From contig NZ_CP106855.1 in assembly GCF_002209355.2 (NCBI RefSeq), positions 1,984,001 through 2,048,000 on the forward strand: a stretch of 64,000 bases of DNA, read 5' to 3'. The notes beneath the pieces are model-generated. The model saw only the letters and a program-made list of their open reading frames with translations, did not search any database and was not told where the DNA came from. Below are positions 33,623-42,545 of the stretch, piece after piece; positions within the stretch are counted from its first letter, which is position 1; each line of letters begins with the position of its first letter. The position numbers and the translations under genes are program-made. The DNA comes from Bdellovibrio sp. SKB1291214 (GTDB taxonomy: Bacteria > Bdellovibrionota > Bdellovibrionia > Bdellovibrionales > Bdellovibrionaceae).

Positions 33623-33651
33623 AAGGGAGTACGAAAGTGCTCCCTTTTTTT
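33623..33651. terminator. Bidirectional terminator
   Basis: GGGAGTAC/GTGCTCCC stem with a GAAA tetraloop, flanked by A-run and seven T, between the convergent deacetylase and giant lipoprotein genes. Confidence 0.88.
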
Positions 33652-36600
33652 ATGGTTTCAGCGGAGTGACTAAGATACGACGCTTATAAGCGTCTTGCAT
33701 CAATAAGCCCAGTGGGGTGACTTTCAGATAGAAAGCCTTACCGCGATTTCCGGGTTTAGTGCCTGGCAGATCCAATCCCGTGACAGGAATGCTTTCGAAA
33801 GTTTTCGTGGTGTCATTGGCGGCGTAGACTTCAGTGACACCGGTATTCACATCGTTCGCTAAGAAATAGTTCCAACCTGTGGCATTGTCATGAACTGCAT
33901 CAATCCACGTTTTTCCGGTTGGATAATTCGTGAATGTTGTCAGATCATGAACTAGATATGCTTTCGGAGATGACGAACTTGATTTAGCCGTGATTTGCAC
34001 GACACGGTTCTCGTCATAGACTAATAATTCACCAGAGCTGTCCTCTTGCATACCGTAGATTCTTGAAAATCCAACGCCTAGTGCTGTCGCACCGTCCGTG
34101 AAAGATGTGGAAGAAGGGGTACCCGATTTACCTGCAATTGCAACAATCGAATCTGTTCCTGCGGGCGTCGTTGCTTTATAGATAGCAAGATTAGAGGTAA
34201 AAGTATTGTTTGAGTAACTTGCGAAATACATGCTGTTATCCGCCATGAAGGTTGCCGTTGAACCCCAGTCCCATAATGCGATCGTATTATAATCAAAAGG
34301 AGTGCCCAATGTCGGTGCCGTGCCAGATGTACCGGTATGAAGTCCTACGTAGGTGCTGAGGTCGGCATTTGCTCCGTCAGGCCACGCGGCAGGGGATAAA
34401 GCCTGTCCCTCCCATTTATAACCCGAAGTACTTCCAGTATTCATCAGTATGCGTGATCCCGTTGGATCGACTAACAGTGCACCATAAGAATTCAATACAG
34501 TATTGATGACGCTTGGATAAGCTGTATCTATCTGTGAAATAAAGGGACTTCCCGGGGTTGTCGTCGTATCGATTTTCATGCGACGCAGGTGCCGTAAACC
34601 GCGAGTATATAGATAATTATTTACAGGGTCATAAGCCAGGCCCGAAATAGATGTGAAGCCGACCAATGAGACATCGGTGCCGTTACCATAGGTCAGGAAT
34701 GGTGTACCGCCGATTTTATTTGCAGTGAAACCAGAATTGTATTTTATCTCGAACAACTCATTTGTTTCTCTTGATACGACATATACCGAGCTATTAGATG
34801 AGCCCATGATCCCTTGAAATTCAGTGATTTTGAATGATGATAGCGAGACGCTTGAACCACCATAATTTCCTGTTGCTGTATCCACAAAACTGACCACGTT
34901 ACCACTGCGAGCATTCAACATACAGAAGTACTTACTTGTATCATTGCCGACATACATCACTCGTGAACAAAGATTCGAAACACTTGCTGAAGTGCTGGAA
35001 ACCAACCATTTCGATGTCGTCGTATCGTACGTCATCTCGAAGCGGTTGGAAGACGTCGTACCAGTACGGTGGTAAATATAAACTTTCGTGCGGTCAGGCA
35101 TAGGTGCGATCCAGCCATTGTAATCACCGCTCTGACATGGCAAAGGAATGGTATCGCCAGCAGCTCCCACACTTGGCGTGGAATTGGTGCAATCAGTTCC
35201 GGAACCTATGATCAATTTTGGCGTGCTCGAAATTGTGTTCAAGTCTAATTCGTAGTAAGCTTTAGGTCTAATGAGACCTGAGTGATAAGACGGGAAGTAA
35301 TAATAGCCAGATTTCAAATATGCATCATATGAAGGATTTGAGATCTGTGTTCTCTCGTCTCCGTTAAGTTGCGAAACAACCCGGTTCCAAACGATACTCT
35401 TATCACTGATTTTAATTCGTGTGATCGTCGAGCACGGTGGAGAGACAATTGTCATTTCACCATTTGTGATATCAATAATTCGCGGAATGGTAAATTGCGC
35501 AACCGTTGCGGTAGGGCAGCCTGCGACACTCATACTTCCTAACCATTCACTGGCGATACCTGTTTGACGGTCGATTTTCATGATGGCGTGACGAAGCTTA
35601 GAACCAGAGTACATATTTGAATTTGAATCAGCAAAGATCCCATTCCAAGAAGACATATCCACAGCGCTCAAATGCACGCCATATTCAAGGTTACCCGGAT
35701 CGCCGGCTAAGATTTGCCAAGTCGAGTTTTGAATCGCGGAAAGAGCCGTCGTAATGATACCGCCCTCTGTTTTACAAGCGACCAACACACGTATTGGGGT
35801 GGTTGATGAAATTGTCTGGCCCGTTGAAGTTGTCGCTGGAATAGTCCAATTGTAAGTGCCAGACGCAGCCAACGACACCATCGTGCTGTCAACAATCGTA
35901 TGATAAGACCGACCATCGTCAATCGTGTATTGGATACTTGAAATGGGTGGACTTGCCAAATTGATGCTCACATCAGAACTTGTACAGTTCCAAGTGATGG
36001 GCATGACATTGCCAGGAACATAGGTTCCTGAACCTGATGGCGACGTGACCTTAATCACCGGAGGCGTGCCCAGTTCGAGCTTCAGAGTATAGGATTTGGT
36101 CAACGACATGATGCCGGCATTATTTTTTATCTGAGCATAGACAGTATGGTTACCAGGGGATGAGCTTAAAGCATAACTCATACCCGAGGCAGAAAAAGGA
36201 ATCCAACCCACACCGTTATCAGTATTAACATCAAAGTCAGTTTCAGAAAAACGCATGTACGAAGTGACCGATGTCGATGCCGTTACACTTAAGGCGGCAT
36301 TGACAGAGGAAATACCGACGATGGTTGCACCGTCTGCCAAAGTGAATGTGTCGATCACGGGACGTTCAGACTCTACGATCAAATCTTTCGTGATAGTTCT
36401 TTGATTTGTCGCCGAGTCTGTTGTTACCACACGCAGTCTGGCATTTTTTGTCGTAGCAGGTGTCGTCCAAGTGTAAGTGTAAGTTTGATTTGACACGCTA
36501 TTCGCGGGCAAGGCTTGAGTACTTAGAGTCGACCACGTGACCCCTGCATCCTCGCTATATTGCAGAACTGTGTTTTGTGAGGTGGATGTATGAATATCCG

Positions 36601-38497
36601 TCACTCTCCAGGAAACGGTTGTCGCTGTGCTCACCCGAACATCTGTGGTTGGTGCAACCCATGTCACGGTCGGCGGAGTGACATCTAAAATAACACTTAA
36701 GCTTCCAGAAGTTGCAGAAACATTGTTCGCAGTGTCTTTTGCCCACACATAAATCGTGTGAGTCGTTTCACCCGTGATCGTGTGAGTGTAAGTCGTTGCT
36801 GTGTTGCACGCGACCCACGAAGTATTTCCTGCAGCGGGTGCCCCCGCACTTTCAGTGAACAGTATGTATGATGTGTCGGTACAATTAGGAACCGTGAATG
36901 TCACTTGTGTGTTGTTAGTAATCGCCGCAGATGTCAGCGTCGGGGACGGAGCATTAGGTGGGGTATTATCGTATACAAACGGCAATCCTGTAGTAGCATT
37001 CGAGTTACCGGCATTGTCTTCGGCATAAAGTCTCATGTAACCGGATGCTGTCGGCGTGTATCCCGTGTAAGGAGATGTAGCCGCCGTTAAAGTGGCAACA
37101 TCCGTGTAAGTAATATCATCTGCAGAGTATTGAAGTTTTACTAACGCTATTCCTGCTAAGGAGTCAGTAGCTGAGAAAGTCAGGCTCATCGCTGTTGATC
37201 CTGCGATGACTGTAGGTACTCCCGTCAGGCTTAACGTGGGTGCTGTCGTATCATATTTTACAGTGACCGATGTCGGCGTCGCCGAGATATTGCCAGCAGA
37301 ATCTTTTGACCAAAGATAAATGGTTTTTATCCCGTCAGACATAGACATGGCATAGTTTTCTGACTGGGTTGTATTCGTTGAGCAAGTTCGATTGAAATCG
37401 GAGGCCGCAACACCCGCAGAAGTTGCGCTTTCAGAAATGGCGAAAGTCGAGAACGTATCACAGTTCACTAAAGAGGCGCCCGTGTCGATAGCAAGTGCCG
37501 CAGTGATAGAATTTGTAACAGCATTTGATGTCAAACTCAGGGCAGGTGCGATGGCTGGAAAAGTATTTTGAACAGTAACAGTGTACGCCTTATCTAAAAC
37601 TGCAAGTGACGTATCGATGTTTCCAGAGCCATCGTTGGTACCGATTTTTAGACCGACGATATTTGCGCCCTGAGAATTTTTTGTCGGAGTAAACGTATAA
37701 GTCGCATTCGTACCCACGTGTGTTCCATTTAAAGTCCACTCATAAGCTGCGCTATAGCTTCCATACCAGTGAGCAGCTGTCACCGTGTGAGTTGCAGAAC
37801 TCATCTCTGGATAGGAGGCAGGTGACGTCAAATTTGCGATATAAGGTGGCACCATCGATACTAAGTCAGAAATATCAGTCAAGCCCAAACCCGCGACAAC
37901 TTGAGCACGTTGAGTCGCGCCACTTCCAGCAACCAAGGCGTCGTAAACTTCGCTCATCGATTCTGAGGTGCTCGCACCCGGCGCTGCCTCGATACTTGCG
38001 ATCAATGCATCGATTTGACCTGCACCTAAGTCTGGAAGTTTTCTAATGCCGCCCAGCTGAACATATGGAGCTAATCCTACGATGCTTGTCGTATACGACA
38101 CCGTTTGATTGGTCATACCAGTCACAGGACGAGTCAGCTGTTTACCGCAAGCTTCGACTTTCAAAAAAAGATTTGAAGATGGCGCCGTCTTGAAAAAGTT
38201 TGTAAATTTGAATGAGTAATCAGATTCAAGCGAAGTACTTGCCCAAGGAGTTTCATCAACGGAACCATCGGGATTCAACTGATGGACCGTGACGATCTTA
38301 GTGCCAGCAGCACACGCAGCCGACGAAGTGATTCCGGGCATTTGTACTTTACCACTTAGAACATCGCCGTGTTCGGACCAGATACTTAAATCGATACTGC
38401 AAGCAGTTTGAAACAATAGGGAACCGATACCCAGAAAACGAATGATCTGAGCAAGTCTTGTTTTGAGATTAAGACTGCAATTACCGGTTACGTGCAT
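33650..38497 (-). CDS. Giant surface lipoprotein with tandem Ig-like domains and NHL-like propeller
   Basis: 1615 residues. The signal ends in a lipobox (GSLLFQTACS, Cys 33). Residues about 300-900 hold tandem bacterial Ig-like domains, each opening with D-x-T-x-P-P (TTAPTLSL, NTPPNAPS, VTPPTVTW) and containing AEDNAGN, AKDTANN or SKDSAGN turns. The C-terminal half about 950-1615 is Ser/Thr-rich with NHL-type blades (VAIAGKSGTPSSTSFTDG...FSRIYGMQEDSSGELLVYD) forming a propeller. Such modular lipoproteins act as adhesins or ligand-binding stalks on the cell surface. No ribosome-binding site is obvious before the ATG. The gene stands alone. Confidence 0.85.
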   Translation of the reverse strand: MHVTGNCSLNLKTRLAQIIRFLGIGSLLFQTACSIDLSIWSEHGDVLSGKVQMPGITSSAACAAGTKIVTVHQLNPDGSVDETPWASTSLESDYSFKFTNFFKTAPSSNLFLKVEACGKQLTRPVTGMTNQTVSYTTSIVGLAPYVQLGGIRKLPDLGAGQIDALIASIEAAPGASTSESMSEVYDALVAGSGATQRAQVVAGLGLTDISDLVSMVPPYIANLTSPASYPEMSSATHTVTAAHWYGSYSAAYEWTLNGTHVGTNATYTFTPTKNSQGANIVGLKIGTNDGSGNIDTSLAVLDKAYTVTVQNTFPAIAPALSLTSNAVTNSITAALAIDTGASLVNCDTFSTFAISESATSAGVAASDFNRTCSTNTTQSENYAMSMSDGIKTIYLWSKDSAGNISATPTSVTVKYDTTAPTLSLTGVPTVIAGSTAMSLTFSATDSLAGIALVKLQYSADDITYTDVATLTAATSPYTGYTPTASGYMRLYAEDNAGNSNATTGLPFVYDNTPPNAPSPTLTSAAITNNTQVTFTVPNCTDTSYILFTESAGAPAAGNTSWVACNTATTYTHTITGETTHTIYVWAKDTANNVSATSGSLSVILDVTPPTVTWVAPTTDVRVSTATTVSWRVTDIHTSTSQNTVLQYSEDAGVTWSTLSTQALPANSVSNQTYTYTWTTPATTKNARLRVVTTDSATNQRTITKDLIVESERPVIDTFTLADGATIVGISSVNAALSVTASTSVTSYMRFSETDFDVNTDNGVGWIPFSASGMSYALSSSPGNHTVYAQIKNNAGIMSLTKSYTLKLELGTPPVIKVTSPSGSGTYVPGNVMPITWNCTSSDVSINLASPPISSIQYTIDDGRSYHTIVDSTMVSLAASGTYNWTIPATTSTGQTISSTTPIRVLVACKTEGGIITTALSAIQNSTWQILAGDPGNLEYGVHLSAVDMSSWNGIFADSNSNMYSGSKLRHAIMKIDRQTGIASEWLGSMSVAGCPTATVAQFTIPRIIDITNGEMTIVSPPCSTITRIKISDKSIVWNRVVSQLNGDERTQISNPSYDAYLKSGYYYFPSYHSGLIRPKAYYELDLNTISSTPKLIIGSGTDCTNSTPSVGAAGDTIPLPCQSGDYNGWIAPMPDRTKVYIYHRTGTTSSNRFEMTYDTTTSKWLVSSTSASVSNLCSRVMYVGNDTSKYFCMLNARSGNVVSFVDTATGNYGGSSVSLSSFKITEFQGIMGSSNSSVYVVSRETNELFEIKYNSGFTANKIGGTPFLTYGNGTDVSLVGFTSISGLAYDPVNNYLYTRGLRHLRRMKIDTTTTPGSPFISQIDTAYPSVINTVLNSYGALLVDPTGSRILMNTGSTSGYKWEGQALSPAAWPDGANADLSTYVGLHTGTSGTAPTLGTPFDYNTIALWDWGSTATFMADNSMYFASYSNNTFTSNLAIYKATTPAGTDSIVAIAGKSGTPSSTSFTDGATALGVGFSRIYGMQEDSSGELLVYDENRVVQITAKSSSSSPKAYLVHDLTTFTNYPTGKTWIDAVHDNATGWNYFLANDVNTGVTEVYAANDTTKTFESIPVTGLDLPGTKPGNRGKAFYLKVTPLGLLMQDAYKRRILVTPLKP

Positions 38498-40697: not shown

Positions 40698-40718
40698 CTA
40701 ATTAAGTTTCTTAATTAG
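40698..40718. repeat. A/T-rich palindrome at the stop of the small Cys-rich gene
   Basis: CTAATTAAG and CTTAATTAG are perfect 9-base arms with a 3-base centre, covering the TAA of the leftward gene at 40711. It may be a regulator site or a mRNA-end stem; no T-run follows. Confidence 0.5.
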
Positions 40719-40908
40719 GTTTCTTACGCGAGCACAGATATTCCGCGTTGGGCTCATCTTTGCGACAGGTATTTTCAACTTCATCCCAACAGCCGCGTTT
40801 TTCTATGCAGCGATCCTTGGCCAGAAAATCTTTCATGAAGAAGATAAAGCCAACTGCGCACAACAATATTAATACAACTATGATGTCGTTAGATCGTCTC
40901 TTTTTGAT
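40711..40908 (-). CDS. Small Cys-rich single-span membrane protein with apparent AUC start
   Basis: A 65-residue frame on the minus strand: charged start (KKRRSND), one hydrophobic helix (IIVVLILLCAVGFIFFM), then a soluble tail with four Cys (DRCIEKRGCW, ENTCRKDE, EYLCSRKKPN). It looks like a complete small protein, but no ATG, GTG or TTG sits at the natural beginning. The codon 7 bases after AGGAG is ATC. An ATG 3 bases after AGGAG, in another frame, stops after 7 codons; a one-base slip in the AAAAA that follows would also join it to this frame. A sigma-28-like promoter lies upstream. Function unknown. Confidence 0.6.
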   Translation of the reverse strand: MKKRRSNDIIVVLILLCAVGFIFFMKDFLAKDRCIEKRGCWDEVENTCRKDEPNAEYLCSRKKPN

Positions 40909-40954
40909 ACATCAACTCCTGGAAAAAACGTACAATGAGAGCAATGTACCTATC

Positions 40955-40981
40955 TTATCGGCTAGGTCATAAATAAGTTGA
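40955..40981 (-). promoter_or_regulatory. Sigma-28 (FliA)-like promoter
   Basis: On the minus strand TCAA, 15 bases, GCCGATAA matches the flagellar/chemotaxis sigma-28 consensus (TCAA or TAAA, N15, GCCGATAA). The expected start site would give a leader of about 40 bases before the small Cys-rich gene. It is the only such full match I noticed outside coding sequence. Confidence 0.6.
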
Positions 40982-41101: not shown

Positions 41102-42515
41102 CTATTCTGCCTTCCCTGTAAGTTTTGAAAGAGTGGTCAAGATATCTCCAACATGATGGGACGCCTGAGAGATTCGTTCAGACATCTCAGAAACCACTTG
41201 TGCAACCTTGGCATTTTCCTGGGATGTCTGATCGATTCTTCCAAATGCCAGACTGATTTGTTGAATGGACGAGGATTGCTGATGAGAGGATTTGGATATC
41301 TCGGCATTGATGCTAGAAACTTTTTTCACAGATTCCAAAACCTCGCCCATGAACTGCTCGCTTTCTTTTGCAATCCGCGAGCCTTCGATAATCTGTGAGC
41401 GATTTTCCTCGATCATGGAGGCAATGTCTCGGGCAGAACCGGCACTTCTTTGCGAAAGCTCACGGACGGCATCCGCGACGACGGCAAAGCCTTTGCCAAG
41501 TTCTCCAGCACGAGCCGCTTCGACGGATGCATTCAATGCCAATAGATTTGTTTGAAAAGCAATATCATCGATCGCTTGAATGATGTCTCCCATTTTTGCA
41601 GCGGAGGCTTCAAGGTTTTGCATCGACTGAATCAAGTGACGGGTGGCTTCAGAACTTTTAATGGAAGCCTGCAACGTCTTTTCTGAAACTTCGGCAGCAC
41701 TGATCGCAGCATCGGACGTGACTTTGAAGGCATTCGTGATGTCTTCCAAAGAGGCGGCGGTTTCCTCTAAGGACGCCGCGGATTCCGTAGCACCGGAAGC
41801 TAATTTTGTACTGGTTTCCGTTAAGGCTTTGCTGGATTCATCCAACTCGCCACCGGTTTGTTGAACGCCCCGGGCGATTTCTGAAATGCGTGTCCCTAAT
41901 TTTCTTATAATCACGGCGCCCAGTACAATACAAAGAAGCGCGCCTAGGACCGCGGTGATTAAGTTGATCGTTCTTAAGTTTGATCCCGAGTTATGAACCG
42001 TACCTGCATCCCGTTCAATTAAGTCTCCCAGTTTTTCCATTTCCGCTTCTAAAATCTTAAAGGCTTTTTCAAAGTCAGGAGTTTCGAGATTGCAGCATCA
42101 AATCCTTCGGTATTTGCCAGCATCACGATCGTTTCTGATTGTTCGATGTAGGATTGCATAGCAGGCATCACACCTGACAAAGCTGATTTGGTTTCCGTTT
42201 GCAGATCGAGGGCGCTCAGTTTTCCAATATAGTTTTTAAAGTTAGCAGACATTTCTTTAACTTCGGTCTGAGATTCCTCAAGACCCGCTTTGTCGCCGGT
42301 TTTTGCAGATAACAAAGCTCCCCGTGCCACGGCACGAAGACCATCATGCATCATATCTGCCAACGTCATGTAACGAACTGCTGGCAGCTGTGTCATAGCG
42401 ACGTTATCGAAGTTTTTCATAAGAGTTGAGGAGTTTAAGAATGATAAAAACCTCACGGAAACCAGGACGACAATAAATCCTAAAACCAAAGCCACATCTG
42501 TCGTTTCAGAGTCAT
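41102..42515 (-). pseudogene. Methyl-accepting chemotaxis protein with two frameshifts
   Basis: Start ATG at 42513-42515 with GGAGG 5 bases upstream (MTLKRQ). A missing base near 42495 would restore the membrane segment ALVLGFIVVLVSV; a second missing base near 42095, in an A run, would join ...DAAISK to [17 protein letters not shown]. Between them the frames give a four-helix-bundle ligand domain, second span ([19 protein letters not shown]) and a full signalling domain with the hairpin-tip core [24 protein letters not shown] split as usual. Intact it would be about 470 residues. Two separate one-base losses suggest a pseudogene or homopolymer-type sequencing errors. Confidence 0.8.
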
Positions 42516-42545
42516 GACTCCTCCGCTGACTAATTTATGCTTAAT

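Follow-up and report, generated by a model that had tools for sequence, protein, structure and literature searches.

The analysed window, 64,000 nucleotides (positions 1984001–2048000) of the single-contig Bdellovibrio sp. SKB1291214 genome, carries on its minus strand a small gene whose reading frame opens at an ATC codon at 40908–40906 (Table 1). Read from this codon (ATC AAA AAG), the frame gives IKKRRSNDIIVVLILLCAVGFIFFMKDFLAKDRCIEKRGCWDEVENTCRKDEPNAEYLCSRKKPN-stop, and two codons upstream of the ATC it is closed by an in-frame TGA. The initial annotation had described a 65-codon frame with an ATC placed 7 nt past AGGAG, and all the elements that it named are indeed present on the minus strand.

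Table 1. Features of the small gene and of its leader, in window coordinates
Feature	Position	Strand	Basis
Small-protein ORF with stop, 65 codons	40908..40711	minus	sequence; dN 0.05–0.11, dS >1 against each other species
Predicted transmembrane segment, residues 9–27	40828..40884	minus	hydrophobic stretch and AlphaFold2 model
Cys-rich mini-domain C34-x5-C40WD...C48-x10-C59	40732..40809	minus	GCWD and the last two Cys unchanged across 8 aligned relatives
Proposed AUC start codon ATC	40906..40908	minus	invariant in 4 species; ATG at the same column in other genera
Overlapping out-of-frame ATG ORF MYQKETI-stop, 7 codons; ATG 40912–40910	40889..40912	minus	ATG conserved in 4 species
Shine-Dalgarno AGGAG (40920–40916) and downstream UGAU (40914–40911) extending 16S pairing	40911..40920	minus	own 16S tail; duplex energy
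Conserved U-rich tract GTTTTTTCC, 5' of the Shine-Dalgarno	40921..40929	minus	invariant in 4 species except that G011 lacks one C
Near-invariant block, -25 to +27 around the ATC	40882..40933	minus	49/52 columns identical in 4 species
Sigma-28 (FliA)-type promoter TCAA-N15-GCCGATAA	40955..40981	minus	-35 from 40981, -10 at 40962–40955; boxes largely conserved in 4 species

From its sequence and model, the product is predicted to span the membrane once and to end in a tail rich in cysteines. This tail, which comes after a predicted membrane helix, has the arrangement C-x5-C-WD-x5-C-x10-C, and the protein has five cysteines in all: the four that had been noted in the tail (C34, C40, C48 and C59) and an additional one, C17, within the membrane segment. 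The AlphaFold2 model consists of a helix (residues 3–36) and a short hairpin, with a mean pLDDT of 80. A fold search against the PDB gave no match, the NCBIfam search returned 0 matches, and the best Pfam match, to DUF4083, scored 16.1 bits, below the cut-off of 25.4. The same Cys-rich GCWD motif occurs in S41 peptidase-like lipoproteins of related bacteria (L006, L009 and L012), at the N-terminus and after a lipobox-like segment. In these lipoproteins as in the small protein the C...GCWD...C...C motif lies directly outside the membrane anchor, whereas the small protein is a stand-alone membrane protein without a peptidase. The position of GCWD in the peptidases lends support to a periplasmic, oxidised tail in the small protein as well. 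As to its role, the likeliest guess is a small protein that is anchored in the membrane and partners or modulates envelope proteins.

The promoter has -35 and -10 boxes that are properly spaced and conserved, as in members of the FliA regulon; the spacer varies in sequence across the four species, and both boxes are largely kept. Exact matches to T[A/C]AA-N15-GCCGATAA number 7 in the 3.68-Mb genome versus 2 for the reversed control, and other exact matches precede a PilZ-like and a patatin-like gene (names given by eye). Among 140 attack-phase promoters mapped by Karunker et al., 92 carry TTAAG-N16-CCGATA, and these authors proposed FliA as the attack-phase regulator of B. bacteriovorus; the promoter of the small gene closely matches this motif (PMC3627812). 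FliA is also reported to be essential, to drive pilus genes and to act beyond flagella (PMC5430801). The original sigma-28 assignment is therefore supported both by conservation in four species and by the attack-phase consensus. The accompanying suggestion that a link to motility control would be new does not stand, since most attack-phase promoters of Bdellovibrio are already reported to be under FliA control, and a sigma-28 link is thus to be expected. Transcription is predicted to start near 40948, and the small gene is probably expressed in the attack phase. No sigma-28 boxes were seen ahead of the distant, ATG-started relatives, and the FliA link thus seems to be confined to the clade of the window.

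Between promoter and ATC lies a leader with several marks of a ribosome binding site. The 3' end of the 16S rRNA in the same genome reads ...GGATCACCTCCTTTCT, and its duplex with AGGAGUUGAU is calculated at -11.0 kcal/mol versus -7.4 kcal/mol for AGGAG alone; the extended helix reaches into the out-of-frame ATG as far as its second base. The distance from AGGAG to the ATC is 7 nt, or 6 nt in G012 and G022, which miss one T, and that to the out-of-frame ATG is correspondingly 3 nt or 2 nt. In 134 long ORFs the AGGAG-ATG spacing peaks at 5–6 nt, 7–8 nt are also in use and 2–3 nt are at background, which places the ATC within the normal range. The U-rich tract is a possible candidate site for ribosomal protein S1.

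The block around the ATC marks what looks like a constrained initiation region. In codons 2–9, 0 of 7 degenerate codons show a synonymous change versus 33 of 42 later in the gene (Fisher p = 1.3e-4). With four sequences compared, there are too few to tell which base is needed. In a control set, similar conservation values were reached by a few well-conserved genes in the vicinity of infC and of the small-gene locus, in a list that includes probably spurious antisense frames and uses a stricter alignment in which the small gene scores 45/52; the block alone is therefore no proof of a special mechanism. RNA structure around the start is not special (z-scores of -0.13, 0.73 and 0.55), a GATGT...ACATC inverted repeat in the start region is conserved but not stable, and an Rfam search of the window found nothing.

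Close orthologues were found in three of the 100 related genomes searched, all in the same genus (protein identity 92 % in G012, 90 % in G022 and 86 % in G011), and the larger searches at order and class level added no further ones. Within the genus set, 20 of 24 genomes are without a close orthologue. Frame, ATC, Shine-Dalgarno and promoter are all retained in the three orthologues, so that the frame is neither devoid of homologues nor decayed in them. Between the window and the other three, dS ranges from 1.1 to saturation and dN from 0.05 to 0.11 (codon table), which implies strong purifying selection on the protein and, with synonymous sites near saturation, makes a chance retention of the ATC implausible. 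The infC-locus tree unites G011, G010, G000, G012 and G022 in one clade. No copy of the small gene was detected in the G010 assembly (88 % complete, 510 contigs), nor was a close orthologue of the ~1600-residue neighbour gene found in this fragmented assembly. Each of the four species that carry the small gene has that neighbour downstream of it; the upstream side differs in G011. In the window it is a 1615-residue lipoprotein-like repeat protein (33650–38497, minus strand), 59–66 % identical across the four species and fast evolving. Two paralogues of the small Cys-rich protein, both with an ATG start, occur at different loci (L101 and L111) in G020, a sister species in the genus. In the wider contig collection, the protein search confirmed no relative, and the search with start-region DNA gave 12 scattered matches, none named Bdellovibrio, which were taken as chance. 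The phage records searched gave no relative, and no second copy of the leader was found in the genome itself.

It had been asked whether relatives start with ATG at the codon in question. The answer is no for the three close orthologues, which all have ATC, and yes for relatives in other genera (L102–L106), in which ATG occupies the ATC column, as in MKKFLKWFG and MSKRKIILL. The start was thus most likely an ATG originally, and the change to ATC would date to the common ancestor of the clade. Decay of the gene after a recent loss of its ATG and a misassembly of the A5 run were both considered and rejected, as the four genomes concur although their synonymous sites have diverged nearly to saturation. 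On the same grounds, the recent start mutation that the initial annotation had listed next to AUC initiation and programmed frameshifting is refuted. Conservation of the start, ribosome binding site and promoter in three other species makes this appear a real, selected feature and not a recent mutation or annotation slip.

Translation from a natural AUC start is, at a probability of about 0.75, the best explanation of this pattern, and of the three original options it is the best supported, by the conserved ATC, the Shine-Dalgarno at 6–7 nt and the Met column of the relatives. As in conserved AUN-start genes, a codon other than AUG, GUG or UUG is kept at the start position across species (ATC in four), and a Shine-Dalgarno with extended pairing stands at normal spacing. 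There is no standard start in frame that competes with it. Initiation further inside, at TTG codon 15 or 16 or at ATG codon 25, would use a standard start codon, and the automatic ORF list did choose a 51-aa TTG-started frame; the resulting protein would be shorter, with little or no membrane helix, even though the membrane segment is kept in relatives. Moreover, the two TTG codons are TTA and ATC in G011, and Met25 has no preceding Shine-Dalgarno. Codons 10–24 vary mostly at synonymous sites, a protein-type constraint which indicates a coding frame already ahead of Met25, and an internal start is accordingly very improbable.

The out-of-frame ATG poses a more serious question. As first described, it lies 3 nt after AGGAG in another frame and opens a 7-codon peptide, and a ribosome starting there could enter the protein frame by a one-base slip on the AAAAA run, provided that the slip is in the +1 direction (or -2). 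Programmed in this way, a +1 frameshift at one of the first four codons (e.g., AAA to AAG in CAAAAAG) would yield MYQKRRSND..., the Shine-Dalgarno being so near the P-site codon that it pushes the ribosome forward as in prfB, where, in the account of PMC8710568 and work cited there, a Shine-Dalgarno near the P-site codon promotes +1 slips. The conservation of ATG and 7-codon ORF in four species and the lack of synonymous change in codons 2–9 would agree with this, and the 2–3 nt spacing resembles the prfB stimulator AGGGGGUAUCUU-UGA (PMC8710568). However, this spacing is not above background in the genus, the ATG is partly buried in the extended Shine-Dalgarno helix, and the slip site has neither an in-frame stop nor a CUU-UGA-type signal; in the prfB-like pattern a stop comes after the slippery P-site codon, and a Shine-Dalgarno-like element lies close upstream. 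Conservation also extends to codon 9, beyond the end of the 7-codon ORF, and the Met at the ATC column of relatives is left unexplained. The frameshifting option is therefore disfavoured, and we consider it unlikely; the out-of-frame ATG is probably not the productive start. A refinement of AUC initiation would keep the AUC as the true start and let the overlapping ORF act as a decoy, or encode a leader peptide, and tune expression further through competition for 30S subunits. ATC and ATG are both conserved, and two overlapping frames would account for the lack of synonymous change in codons 1–7, but the spacing makes use of the ATG weak, the last residue of the peptide changes from I in the window to N in G011, and codons 8–9 are conserved beyond the peptide; its probability is slightly lower than that of the frameshift.

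AUC initiation at the small gene has a close counterpart in infC, which encodes IF3 and served as a positive control. In 11 of 11 inspected genomes of the genus (loci L068–L072, L075, L076, L084 and L088–L090), infC starts with ATT 5–6 nt after GGAGG, so that conserved AUN initiation is already in use there. Both genes combine a conserved non-canonical AUN codon at the start position with a strong Shine-Dalgarno at normal spacing, whereas infC has AUU instead of AUC and specifies an essential factor, and the small gene a membrane protein. In E. coli, infC is part of an autoregulatory loop. To our knowledge, few bacterial genes have a conserved natural AUN start other than AUG. The papers searched contained no natural AUC start in bacteria; Myxococcus xanthus, another predatory bacterium, has a natural AUC start in dsg/infC, which encodes an IF3 homologue and not a small protein with a predicted FliA promoter.

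In S. aureus, non-canonical starts have been demonstrated by Ribo-Ret and reporters: cvfC1 (61 aa), the nearest analogue in the literature, has a conserved AUU and an extended Shine-Dalgarno, ccpN has a conserved AUA, and in poor medium non-canonical starts gave ~10 % of AUG output (PMC13009471). The small gene, with its proposed AUC start, shares with both the conserved non-canonical start and extended Shine-Dalgarno, and with cvfC1 the small size of the product, which in cvfC1 has a potential zinc-finger domain (PMC13009471). It differs from them in codon, phylum and protein family, and its start is predicted from sequence. The weak AUU start of E. coli pcnB, which encodes an unrelated protein, limits translation (Binns and Masters 2002, as cited in PMC13009471). 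Conserved non-canonical starts are thus already known as a class, and what is unusual here is the codon AUC.

Taken along the path of expression, FliA-RNA polymerase would make an mRNA with a short leader, probably in the swimming attack phase. The 30S subunit would be held by the U-rich tract together with the extended Shine-Dalgarno helix (AGGAG plus UGAU), and initiation with fMet at the AUC 6–7 nt downstream would give fMet-KKRRSNDIIVV.... The poor codon-anticodon match may keep output low, and IF3 probably affects the AUC start as it does that of infC. The protein would reside in the inner membrane with a single pass, its basic end in the cytoplasm and its four-Cys tail, probably with two disulfides, in the periplasm. 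It is tempting, if rather speculative, to see in the AUC a second, IF3-sensitive layer of control on a FliA-driven membrane protein of the attack phase, with the ATG mini-ORF as decoy or +1-frameshift entry and the output set by the translation state of a non-growing predator. A clear conserved AUC case could readily serve as a reporter of the way in which AUC initiation is permitted by IF3 and extended Shine-Dalgarno pairing, and points to a class of small genes that are misannotated or overlooked under standard rules for start codons.

Two further observations concern the flanks of the small gene. At 40698–40718, a perfect AT-rich inverted repeat, CTAATTAAG-AAA-CTTAATTAG, overlaps the stop codon and is absent from G012 and G022. 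On the other side, a methyl-accepting chemotaxis gene (41102–42520, minus strand) is broken: the intact 478–484-residue protein of G012 and G022 matches it in three frames, and the two frameshifts, both near short homopolymers, reflect either real decay or assembly indels.
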